Assembly (NCBI RefSeq): GCF_015350975.1
Contig: NZ_JADKRX010000002.1
Location: 1-64,000, forward strand
Direction of reading: 5' to 3'
DNA length: 64,000 nt
Source: Curtobacterium sp. VKM Ac-1395
Lineage (GTDB): Bacteria; Actinomycetota; Actinomycetes; Actinomycetales; Microbacteriaceae
In this document: positions 20,689-40,756 of the stretch, in pieces
Layout of the letters: each line of letters begins with the position of its first letter
How positions within the stretch are numbered: position 1 is the first letter of the stretch
The notes under the pieces: generated by a model
Database searches by the model: none
What the model saw: the letters and a program-made list of their open reading frames with translations, nothing else
What the model was told of the DNA's origin: nothing
Translations under genes and position numbers: made by a program

Positions 20689-21074
20689 ACGACATCGTGG
20701 TCGTCGTACGACAGCGATGGTGTCGTCTGATGCGGGCGCATGTGGTGCGTGTGCATGGTCCGACAGCTCATGCGTCGTTCGACTCGTGCGATGTCGTCTG
20801 ATGCGGGCGCATGTCGTGCGTGTGCATCGTCCGACACCGCACGCGTCGTTCGACTCGCGCGACGTCGGAGCATGCGCCCGGATCGACTCCACGCGACATC
20901 GTGGACGTCGTACGACAGCGGTGGTGTCGCTGGCGGCTGGGGCCGCAGCGTGATCCCGCGCCGAGCGACATCGTGGTCGTCGTACGACAGCGGTGGTGTC
21001 GCTGGCGGCTGGGGCCGCAGCGCGATCCCGCGCCGCGCGACATCGTCGACGTCGCACGACAGCGATGATGTCGC
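20689..21074. repeat. Array of 38-bp nested-palindrome repeats
   Basis: Four units at 20689-20726, 20893-20930, 20965-21002 and 21037-21074. Each has outer arms like gcgacatcgtsg and cgrtggtgtcgc around an inner palindrome, gtcgtacgac in three of the four units. The last three are spaced by near-identical 34-bp linkers. A solo copy occurs at 52304-52341. Confidence 0.88.
20722..20865. repeat. Tandem ~71-bp direct repeat (two copies)
   Basis: Two consecutive copies start gtcgtctgatgcgggcgcat (about 20723 and 20793). They share gcgtgtgcat, gtccgaca and cgtcgttcgactcg at matching offsets, with a handful of substitutions. They fill the gap between the first and second 38-bp units. Confidence 0.8.
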
Positions 21075-38232: not shown

Positions 38233-39168
38233 TCAGGCGCCGACGGTGACGCTCCGCACGACGAAGCGCGGGACCTCCACGGCGAGCGTCGCACGGCAGG
38301 TTGTGTACGTCGCAGCGGTCCGCACCCGCTCGAGGTCGACGCGGACCGTGTGCCCGTCGGTGTCGAGGTCGACGGACCAGTCGGTGCCGTCCATCGTCGG
38401 TTCGGACACCGACACCGGTCGGAAGGCGTCGATCCGGTCGTCCCCGGTCTCGGCGACGGCCGCCGCGATCGCCGCCTGTTCGACGTGCGTGTGCGTCGAC
38501 CGACCACGGAACCCGAGGGGCGCGATGCGTCCGTGGAGGTACTGGTCGGCGATGACGACGGGGTCGTGCTCGTCGACGCGGCCGTGGTTCAGCCCGTGCG
38601 GGAAGACCATGGTCGTCGCCGCGAACCGGTCCCCGCCGAGGTGGGAGCACTCCCACGTCTCGTCGGGGTACGCGGCAGCGAGCCGTTCCACCACCGAGCG
38701 CCCGCGGACCGCGCAGCACTCGTCGTGGCGGCCGTGGGCGCACACGGCGAACACCGGGCGCTCGGACAGCTCGCCCGTGCTGCCGTCGAGCGGGAGCGTC
38801 AGGAGGTCCCCGGGCCCGTCGACCTCACCCCAGCGCACCGTGGGCCGTGGTGCGTCAGAGTCGACCACGGCCCACCGCCAGCGTCCTGCACCGCGGAGGC
38901 GGCCGGTCCGACGGATTGCGAGGATGCGCATGCCGGCCCGCTGGGCACGGCGCGCCAACGCCGTCCCGATCTCGGGCGGGAGCGCCGGCGACTGGGTCCA
39001 GACGTCCCAGCCCCAGGCGCTCGCGACCTCGACGAGGAGCCACCGCCTCCCGGGGGAGGCGGTGGCGACCAGGTCCTCGTCGCTCGCACGGGAGCGCGCG
39101 CTGCACGCCGGACCGCCCTGCGACCGGGGTGGTCCGAGCGCAGGGCCCGTTCGGCGCCACTCGGTCAC
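38233..39168 (-). CDS. Suc/Fer-like (thioredoxin-fold ferredoxin) protein
   Basis: 311-aa member of the sucrase/ferredoxin-like family. The signature is complete: CAHGRHDECCAVRG (about residues 143-156), then ECSHLGGDRFAATTMVFPHG with its HxxGG motif (about 173-192). Cys and His here are expected to hold a [2Fe-2S] cluster on a thioredoxin-like fold. GTG 39168 overlaps the stop of the oxygenase gene by 4 nt, so the two are translationally coupled. That makes it a likely electron carrier or maturation partner for the oxygenase. Family function is poorly known; the old sucrase name should not be read as enzymatic activity. Confidence 0.87.
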   Translation of the reverse strand: MTEWRRTGPALGPPRSQGGPACSARSRASDEDLVATASPGRRWLLVEVASAWGWDVWTQSPALPPEIGTALARRAQRAGMRILAIRRTGRLRGAGRWRWAVVDSDAPRPTVRWGEVDGPGDLLTLPLDGSTGELSERPVFAVCAHGRHDECCAVRGRSVVERLAAAYPDETWECSHLGGDRFAATTMVFPHGLNHGRVDEHDPVVIADQYLHGRIAPLGFRGRSTHTHVEQAAIAAAVAETGDDRIDAFRPVSVSEPTMDGTDWSVDLDTDGHTVRVDLERVRTAATYTTCRATLAVEVPRFVVRSVTVGA

Positions 39169-40412
39169 GGGACGGGTACCAGGACGCCTTCCCGGAGGAG
39201 CCGGCGGACCACGACGACGGCGTCGTCCTCGTCGAGCGCGGGGAGCGACCCGACCGCGAGCGTCTCGCCGCCGTGCAGCGCCTGGACGGCTGAGAGTGCC
39301 ACGACGGGCAGTCGGACCGTCTTCGACGGCAGCACGATGGCGACCTGTCCGGCGTCCTCGCGGACCACGGCGTGGAGTTCGTCGCGCCAGCGGACCCGGT
39401 CGGAGCCCGCCAGCCCTGCTGCGACCTCGACCGTGTGGAGCGGACGGACCGGCTCAGCACGGGTCGACCGGCGGAACCGGGACCCGACGCGCACCGCGAC
39501 CTCGTCCACCGAGGACCCGTCGGCTGCACCCTGGAGGGACGCGATGAGGTCCTCCGCGGCTGCCCGGACGTCGTCGGCGATCTGGGCCGGGTCGGCGAGG
39601 TCGATGCCGAGGGGCAACGACGCACGCAGTCGGTCCGACCGGAGCGCTCGGCCGATGAGGTCCCGCGCCAGGTCGGCCCGGGTGACGGCGGGCATGCCGA
39701 TCGTCAGGTGGATCGTGGTGCCGACGAGCGCCGTCGCCGAGTGCAGCCACCCGCGCGGCAGGTACAGGGCGTCGCCGGGGGAGAGCACGGTGTCGATCGC
39801 GGGTTCGCCGGCGGCCTGTGCGGCCACCGCGTCCCGTCGGTCGCCCCACGGCTCGTCGGCGAAGGGCAGCTCGTGGACCGGCTCGTGGATGACCCAGCGC
39901 TTCTGGCCCGCGATCTGCAGCACGAACACGTCGTGCACGTCGTAGTGGGGGTCGAAGCCGCGGGACGACGCCGGGGTGATGTAGGCGTTGACCTGCGCGG
40001 GGTGCCCGAGCTCGGCGACGAGCCGTCGGGTGAACTCCTGCAGCGGCGGCCACGTTCGGTGCAGCCCCTGGAGGACGATCGTCGACCCGGCGGCGAACTC
40101 CGCGAGCACCTTCTCGGAGCTGACCTGGTCACCGACCTCGGCGCCGTAGCCGCCCGGAGCGGTGAAGGCACTCGGTGCCAGCACCGAACCCTCCTTGGCC
40201 ATCCGGATGAACGGCGTGCGCAGGCCCCGGACCGAGAGCAGCTCGTCGGCGGCCTCGGTCGAGAAGAGGTCGTCGAACGTCGTCCCGAGGTCCGCGGCAC
40301 TGCTCAGCAGCGCGCGCTTGCCCCAGTGGTCCGCGGCGAACTCCGCGACGGAGACGGCGATGCACCGGTCGAGGGCGCTCACCGTCTCCGTCGAGTCGGA
40401 CTCTCGGCTCAC
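39165..40412 (-). CDS. Cupin-4/JmjC-like 2-oxoglutarate oxygenase (ribosomal-oxygenase type)
   Basis: 415 aa. The double-stranded beta-helix carries HYDVHDVFVLQIAGQKRW near residue 155, the H-x-D pair of Fe(II) ligands, and YLPRGWLHSATAL near 216, the distal His. These are the marks of YcfD/NO66/MINA53-type enzymes, which hydroxylate Arg or His side chains in ribosomal proteins with 2-oxoglutarate and O2. A winged-helix-like C-terminal region follows. GTG 40412 overlaps the stop of the tiny repeat-protein gene, and its stop overlaps the ferredoxin start, both by 4 nt. The coupling suggests that the repeat protein, not the ribosome, may be its substrate; this is inference. Confidence 0.87.
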   Translation of the reverse strand: MSRESDSTETVSALDRCIAVSVAEFAADHWGKRALLSSAADLGTTFDDLFSTEAADELLSVRGLRTPFIRMAKEGSVLAPSAFTAPGGYGAEVGDQVSSEKVLAEFAAGSTIVLQGLHRTWPPLQEFTRRLVAELGHPAQVNAYITPASSRGFDPHYDVHDVFVLQIAGQKRWVIHEPVHELPFADEPWGDRRDAVAAQAAGEPAIDTVLSPGDALYLPRGWLHSATALVGTTIHLTIGMPAVTRADLARDLIGRALRSDRLRASLPLGIDLADPAQIADDVRAAAEDLIASLQGAADGSSVDEVAVRVGSRFRRSTRAEPVRPLHTVEVAAGLAGSDRVRWRDELHAVVREDAGQVAIVLPSKTVRLPVVALSAVQALHGGETLAVGSLPALDEDDAVVVVRRLLREGVLVPVP

Positions 40413-40672
40413 GCCGAGCCGTCCGCGCCGCCGTCGTGGCCGTTCGGGTTGGCGCCGCCGTCGGCCGGGCCTTCGCCGGCGTCGGCGTCGGCCGAGCCGT
40501 CGGCGCCGCCGTCGTGGCCGTTCGGGTTGGCGCCGCCGTCCGCGGGGCCTTCGCCGGCGTCGGCCGAGCCGTCGGCGCCGCCGTCGTGCCCGTTCGGGTT
40601 GGCGCCGCCGTCAGCCGGGCCTTCGCCGGCGCTCTGGGTGTCCGTCGTGATGTCGTCGTCGTTGATGCTCAT
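40409..40672 (-). CDS. 87-aa acidic three-repeat protein (candidate multicore precursor)
   Basis: A 14-residue N-terminus (MSINDDDITTDTQS) is followed by three identical 23-residue units starting AGEGPADGG and containing NPNGHDGG, joined by D and DAD. Each unit has one His and two Asn, several Asp-Gly pairs and no Cys, Lys, aromatic or bulky aliphatic residue, so it should be disordered. The DNA units are also nearly identical (72- and 78-nt periods), showing recent expansion or selection for sequence. ATG 40672 has gagagg upstream. Its stop overlaps the oxygenase GTG by 4 nt. I recognise no characterised family. The design (leader plus identical cores beside a modifying enzyme) recalls RiPP precursors. 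Confidence 0.8.
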   Translation of the reverse strand: MSINDDDITTDTQSAGEGPADGGANPNGHDGGADGSADAGEGPADGGANPNGHDGGADGSADADAGEGPADGGANPNGHDGGADGSA

Positions 40673-40756
40673 GGAGGTCCCTCTCGTCAGTCGGCCGGAG
40701 TGCCGTCTGCGCCCGAGAGTAGGACGTCCGCCTGGCCACGGTCCAGGATTGGTCGG

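Follow-up and report, generated by a model that had tools for sequence, protein, structure and literature searches.

The 64,000-nucleotide stretch of Curtobacterium sp. VKM Ac-1395 analysed here (contig NZ_JADKRX010000002.1, positions 1 to 64,000; the window in what follows) carries on its minus strand three consecutive genes encoding, in this order, an 87-residue repeat protein, a 415-residue JmjC-type 2-oxoglutarate (2OG) oxygenase and a 311-residue Suc/Fer-like protein. The repeat protein is very probably the dedicated substrate of the oxygenase, and the reading that we favour, with some reservation, is that the trio resembles the operons for ribosomally synthesized and post-translationally modified peptides (RiPPs) and would produce multiply hydroxylated Asp-repeat peptides. 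An earlier note on this DNA had described three genes joined by 4-nt overlaps, the first of them encoding three identical 23-residue units, and both statements were borne out by the open reading frames (ORFs), their translations and a reading of the sequence. Each joint is a 4-nt GTGA overlap, shared by the precursor stop and the oxygenase start in one case and by the oxygenase stop and the Suc/Fer start in the other. The precursor consists of a 14-residue leader, MSINDDDITTDTQS, and three copies of AGEGPADGGANPNGHDGGADGSA at residues 15-37, 39-61 and 65-87. A gene-encoded precursor made of a leader and repeated cores, and a putative dedicated modifying enzyme encoded alongside, are two features that the locus has in common with RiPP systems.

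The search that the earlier note had proposed, for repeat ORFs upstream of cupin-4 and Suc/Fer genes, found the trio again across many actinobacterial families. Among the best 80 of the 147 loci found in named genomes, an Asp-rich repeat ORF lies directly upstream of the oxygenase gene in 77 (76 by script and L101 by eye), and a linked Suc/Fer gene is present in 75. The three loci lacking an intact ORF are one at a contig end with 59 bases left (L103), one with an assembly gap (a run of N) within the repeats and an intact first unit (L044), and one with a frameshift (L099). The last is the only case in the 80 loci of what the note had named as speaking against its proposal, namely a repeat gene absent or frameshifted beside retained enzymes. 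In this one draft genome (L099, 3650-4080) the repeat ORF is frameshifted past its first unit and both the oxygenase and the Suc/Fer protein still match; the frameshift may be a sequencing error. The genera represented include Curtobacterium, Herbiconiux, Subtercola, Leifsonia, Agreia, Cryobacterium and Cellulomonas, as well as Rhodococcus, Gordonia, Dietzia, Williamsia, Motilibacter, Mycolicibacterium and Mycobacterium.

In three further samples, which overlap each other, an oxygenase match was obtained in 37 of 299 genomes of the family (E 1e-20), 114 of 394 genomes of the class (E 1e-20) and 36 of 246 genomes of the phylum (E 1e-40). We examined 90 of the 130 places in the class sample (the 94 best minus G621, G371, G453 and G394). 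An Asp-rich ORF was found at 82 of them and a linked Suc/Fer gene at 61, all 61 also having the Asp-rich ORF, and eight places had neither. Ten of these 82 ORFs encode a 35-38-residue peptide treated below, and two (L201 and L203) are acidic with no clear repeats. The phylum sample gave 30 loci (the earlier samples had already included 10 of these 30 genomes), with an Asp-rich ORF in 29 by script (L265 being cut by a contig end) and a linked Suc/Fer gene in 26. The 4-nt overlap is the commonest spacing between oxygenase and Suc/Fer genes in 182 pairs, a count that includes overlapping copies and script-chosen starts.

The precursor of the window is acidic, with a calculated isoelectric point (pI) of 4.05 and 16 Asp among its 87 residues, and up to E 1 neither Pfam nor NCBIfam gave a match to it. 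The other precursors searched matched no Pfam family, and NCBIfam gave only weak low-complexity matches for one peptide. The three 69-nt repeat copies encode the same protein and are 3-4 silent nucleotides apart, and their array tops all 30 rows returned by Tandem Repeats Finder for the 64-kb window (score 361). When the repeat units are compared with those of five other Curtobacterium loci (L002, L003, L005, L006 and L009), 2-8 codons per unit differ synonymously and none non-synonymously. The oxygenases of the window and L005 differ over 415 codons by 77 non-synonymous and 108 synonymous changes (the L009 oxygenase was left out of this ungapped comparison because of unequal lengths), and the peptide is thus under tighter constraint than the enzyme. 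Judged from these codons, the repeat protein is real and under strong purifying selection, and a conservation above that of its enzyme is unlike a fast-evolving antibiotic. Such near-frozen repeats suggest a physiological role, in metal handling or stress, rather than one in warfare.

For a broader comparison, precursors were taken from the 222 loci with an Asp-rich ORF (excluding the overlapping copies L148-L177, and still holding genomes reached via two collections); leaving out 33 without a clear start gave 189, of which 151 are distinct, a few of these with a doubtful start. The leader motif common to the precursors is approximately D-D-D-I-x-T, and its strict form is present in 125 of the 151. 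Three main core types follow it: NPxGHDGGADG, mostly (ADGG)n, and (TDGDAxD)n. Among the other cores are EGTPGVQDGGADGGA units and the core of L195, which contains only Gly, Ala and Asp; those of L139 and L140 are mostly (ADGG)n. Repeat cores of Asp, Thr, Gly, Ala and Ser are found in L214, L215, L217-L221 and most of L247-L266, with Asp making up as much as about 42% of the last 45 residues. The words enriched in 136 distinct stretches upstream of the precursors are mainly ribosome-binding or minus-10-like, and others include AAATGTGA (7 of 136). In a quick FastTree tree with long-branch warnings, covering 64 of the 227 oxygenases, the core types cluster on the enzyme tree.

The oxygenase of the window belongs to Pfam JmjC_2 (PF08007, E 5.3e-27), whose members are best known as hydroxylases. 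It shows the features of the NO66/MINA/YcfD family: a JmjC fold, an HxD...H triad, a conserved Lys and a C-terminal winged-helix-like domain. The predicted model resembles these proteins along the whole chain, with an alignment that reaches the last residues, and its C-terminal domain has strands followed by helices, an order that fits the winged helix of a RiPP recognition element (RRE). It differs from them in being about 22-25% identical to NO66 and in sharing its operon with a repeat-peptide gene. In an 88-row alignment (A1) the invariant residues H156, D158, H160, D161, K171, H224 and H235 are kept by the oxygenases of L195, L207, L212, L217 and L221 as well. R65, H118 and R343 are conserved too, but are not retained by the five distant actinobacterial JmjC sequences that close A1 and have no Suc/Fer gene. 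Two trio-type oxygenase genes (G621:C1:60595-61774 and G682:C1:1613852-1615063) seem to be split or to have an internal TGA.

The third protein of the trio in the window matches PF06999 (E 3.5e-14, 53.7 bits against a gathering cut-off of 34.9). Its predicted thioredoxin-like ferredoxin fold is that of PF06999 proteins and of the thioredoxin-like [2Fe-2S] ferredoxins (Aquifex ferredoxin, 1m2a). C143, C151, C152 and H176 are invariant in the aligned members and are candidate iron-sulfur ligands. In comparison with Suc_Fer-like PF06999 paralogues, the trio protein has Asp180 in place of His as well as conserved Cys22 (62 of 64 aligned members) and Cys291 (63 of 64). Residue 180 (window 38629-38631), in the motif SHxGG[H/D]RF, is Asp in 63 of the 64 and His in the four paralogues seen, and this Asp may alter the ligand set of the cluster. 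Upstream of the trio precursor, L221 encodes another Suc/Fer-type protein, which has His180. The Suc/Fer gene is usually linked to the oxygenase gene and sometimes located elsewhere in the genome.

From these data we propose the following mechanism. The small protein would be a multi-core precursor, with an N-terminal D-D-D-I-x-T leader ahead of Asp-rich repeats, and the NO66/MINA/YcfD relative would be its dedicated modifying enzyme. The C-terminal winged-helix-like domain of the predicted model would, by analogy, most likely hold the leader, and the jelly-roll active site would use 2OG and O2 to hydroxylate Asp in each repeat, in this lineage that of ADGG or DGGADG, with the beta carbon as the probable position. 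For the Suc/Fer protein, a specialised thioredoxin-fold iron-sulfur protein, the probable task is to hold the iron of the oxygenase in its reduced state, to provide iron or electrons, or to carry out a second redox step, and it would be helpful rather than always required. The resulting peptide would be very acidic and rich in hydroxy-aspartate, would stay inside the cell and would be suited to binding metal ions; metal handling is a possible, if doubtful, role for it. Only tentatively do we extend this to a peptide class spanning the Actinomycetota, in which a leader-guided JmjC enzyme and a special iron-sulfur partner would make poly(hydroxy-aspartate) peptides that remain in the cell and serve there to buffer or store a metal ion, the precursor type diversifying with the enzyme and only Asp staying constant.

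A number of observations weigh against this proposal, beginning with the residue to be modified. In the repeat type of the window His is present in 267 of 269 units (98 precursors) and is as conserved as Asp, and the closest folds are histidyl hydroxylases. The His of NPxGHDGG could accordingly be the target, with one hydroxylation in each repeat on the pattern of NO66 and MINA, and the earlier note had likewise looked to the His or Asn of each repeat. Counted past residue 20, 150 of the 151 distinct precursors contain Asp, 117 His, 100 Asn, 3 aromatic residues and 2 Cys, so that 34 have no His there, and the Ala/Asp/Gly core of L195 and the (TDGDAxD)n cores of L212, L217 and L221 accompany oxygenases with identical invariant active-site residues in A1. 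Modification of His is for these reasons rather improbable. The part of the note that holds up is the pairing of the repeats with the oxygenase as dedicated partners, for which the near-constant linkage, the common leader and the clustering of core types on the enzyme tree speak; His conservation is near complete within the repeat type of the window and fails across the distinct precursors. Because Asp is constant while His and Asn vary across core types, it is the simplest shared target, and this comparison of sequences makes Asp the reasonably likely site.

The nearest solved relatives, NO66, MINA and YcfD, are titled as His or Arg hydroxylases of ribosomal proteins (L8, L27A or L16), and the fold match to such oxygenases along the whole chain would fit an ordinary ribosomal-protein oxygenase that shares its operon by chance with an unrelated repeat protein. 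We regard this as highly improbable, since the linkage persists across many families as other neighbours change, and the nine Curtobacterium genomes with the oxygenase have all three genes together at one site, at which the other 21 loci viewed carry no oxygenase. The genomic context thus points to the repeat peptide, rather than a ribosomal protein, as substrate.

The iron-sulfur partner is not universal either, as no Suc/Fer protein was found at E 1e-10 in 7 of the 17 genomes without a linked copy that were searched. This also counts, together with the prevalence of hydroxylases among JmjC_2 enzymes, against the possibility that the two proteins go beyond hydroxylation and desaturate, decarboxylate, cross-link or cleave at Asp. 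That outcome, which we consider unlikely, has in its favour the usual linkage of a second redox protein with an unusual Asp for the paralogue His. A precedent is also offered by SmaO/SmaX, described in PMC13097080 as converting Asp to aminomalonate.

The acidity of the repeat protein, its strong purifying selection and the lack of a widely conserved exporter would suit an acidic metal-binding chaperone that feeds iron to both enzymes, or acts on its own, and is no substrate at all. This is very unlikely in view of an N-terminus that is leader-like and different from the repeats, the core types that cluster on the oxygenase tree, and the very different 35-38-residue peptide that 10 distant JmjC relatives have at the same position. 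To return to the proposed RiPP-like operon, further points stand against it. No core type forms a single clade on the tree described above, the three main types requiring 4-6 changes each. The Pfam PqqD/RRE model gave no match to the C-terminal domain in the 46 members scanned, and the argument for leader binding therefore comes from fold and analogy. The acidic ORFs without clear repeats in L201 and L203 also have no linked Suc/Fer gene. The near-frozen cores are unlike those of most antibiotic RiPPs, and the classical leader-removal step has no local candidate, neither proteases nor exporters being widely conserved in the neighbourhood; enzymes encoded elsewhere in the genome may serve.

The enzyme fold, JmjC hydroxylases in RiPPs and multi-core precursors are already known. 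The JmjC/cupin hydroxylases of biphenomycin-type RiPPs (BipG and PbsQ) are JmjC or cupin-like 2OG enzymes that hydroxylate a ribosomal precursor, the role proposed here for the oxygenase; they differ in having ornithine as target (for BipG see PMC12707348) and in belonging to clusters with a multinuclear non-heme iron-dependent oxidative enzyme (MNIO), a radical S-adenosylmethionine enzyme and a metalloprotease. Corallotide and other graspetides, and SmaO/SmaX, offer repeated core motifs, a 2OG oxygenase and a precedent for Asp beta-hydroxylation, but graspetides need a graspetide synthetase, of which none was seen in the window operon, and the corallotide oxygenase is PF13640 and not PF08007. 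Sponge bacteria have a cupin-4 enzyme beside precursors of the nitrile hydratase leader peptide (NHLP) type, according to PMC9426513, and macrocyclisation by a 2OG dioxygenase in RiPPs is cited in PMC12710340. Six repeat or leader strings had no occurrence in the open-access literature searched, which lies mostly outside subscription journals; in this literature the RiPP-like class is undescribed, and a prior report is possible. If hydroxylation of the repeats by the oxygenase does take place, the RiPP-like class would be a widespread one, with the tested precursors outside Pfam and NCBIfam, and it would bring both a natural polymer of modified aspartates and a new type of substrate for the NO66/MINA/YcfD fold. 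It would also become testable whether the winged-helix domain of that family can be an RRE-like peptide-binding module.

Table 1 Features of the trio locus in the window.
Feature	Position	Strand	Evidence
Repeat precursor gene, 87 aa	40409..40672, incl. stop codon	(-)	ORF and translation; counterpart in 77/80 loci
Shine-Dalgarno-like GAGAGG	40680..40685	(-)	7 nt ahead of precursor ATG, sequence reading
Leader segment MSINDDDITTDTQS, conserved motif D-D-D-I-T-T	40631..40672	(-)	Strict motif in 125/151 distinct precursors
Repeat unit 1, AGEGPADGGANPNGHDGGADGSA	40562..40630	(-)	Sequence reading
Repeat unit 2, protein-identical to unit 1	40490..40558	(-)	Sequence reading
Repeat unit 3, protein-identical to unit 1	40412..40480	(-)	Sequence reading
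JmjC_2 / cupin-4 2OG-Fe(II) oxygenase, 415 aa, GTG start	39165..40412	(-)	H156-x-D158...H224, K171 invariant
Oxygenase C-terminal winged-helix-like domain, ~residues 335-415, candidate leader-binding	39168..39410	(-)	Predicted model and NO66/MINA/YcfD alignment
Suc/Fer-like thioredoxin-fold iron-sulfur protein, 311 aa, GTG start	38233..39168	(-)	
Suc/Fer thioredoxin-like ferredoxin domain, residues 136-223	38500..38763	(-)	C143, C151, C152, H176 invariant; D180

Within Curtobacterium this kind of oxygenase was found in 9 of 66 genomes, each time with a repeat ORF (interrupted by N in L007) and a Suc/Fer gene; a tenth match in the genus (G031) is a 35%-identical partial relative with no repeat in its 3.4-kb locus. 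All nine trios have a crcB pair no more than about 1.45 kb away, and the loci viewed at this site number 30 of 66. In the trio-less L292 and L303, comparison by eye places directly beside crcB the regulator gene that comes next after the trio in the window; the LacI/GntR kinship of this gene is likewise judged by eye. From the occupied and empty sites next to crcB, the cassette seems to be gained or lost as a block. At this site 15 of the 21 viewed loci that lack the trio have tRNA-Glu genes. A conserved stretch, CAGACCCGGCAGTGGGGCCTGCCGG...GGCGATAGGAG, precedes crcB in L284, L288, L289, L293 and L294; it was not seen ahead of the crcB of the window, and Rfam gave no match to it in L284, L288 and L293.

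The flanking ORFs up to 4 kb around the 80 loci were called crudely and without family annotation, and once the trio and an antisense artefact are set aside, no group occurs in more than seven loci. The recurring neighbours, named by eye, include an ORF resembling the ATPase of an ATP-binding cassette (ABC) transporter (6 of 80) and a possible membrane transporter (5 of 80). Local transporters thus exist and none accompanies the trio generally, in keeping with the earlier observation that no transporter or protease is adjacent in the window.

Eighteen JmjC relatives without a nearby Suc/Fer gene (27-34% identity) were meant as a negative control and did not serve as one, as 10 of the 18 carry an acidic upstream peptide; the other eight have no such ORF by the criteria used. 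The peptides, MDPIEVEVEDLAEVTSRDITAGGDSDGTDGSSDFI and its kin, are conserved, 35-38 residues long and found in L216, L222, L223, L226-L230, L233 and L235. They have in common a DGTD element or a close form of it, end in DGTDSSSDFI or similar, and are encoded about 65-141 nt upstream of the JmjC_2 gene. From their sequences they look like a second, single-core precursor family, and their presence in 10 of the 18 suggests that a tie to small acidic precursors may be a more general feature of this JmjC branch. A further precursor-like ORF of 45 residues, MAETKTLKMDEIQVETAPAADPQFLICDPDPSDDCWIVCNPNYCY, lies with a ribosome-binding-like site about 134 nt upstream of the oxygenase gene in L210, and has no Pfam or NCBIfam match.

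Links to anti-phage defence and to phages were considered and rejected: the three trio proteins have no PADLOC match at E 0.01, and the oxygenase has none at E 1e-5 among 50,697 phage records. Five pattern matches in viral contigs were not confirmed in any case. On plasmids, JmjC relatives occur in 50 records, all below 60% identity and at 32-34% in the 20 rows listed. Rfam gave no RNA element match at gathering score between 37 and 42 kb of the window, and a repeat search between 38.0 and 38.7 kb found short two-copy repeats only. Elsewhere in the window, two tandem arrays with units of 71 and 72 nt and 90-92% match are located at 20721-21074.

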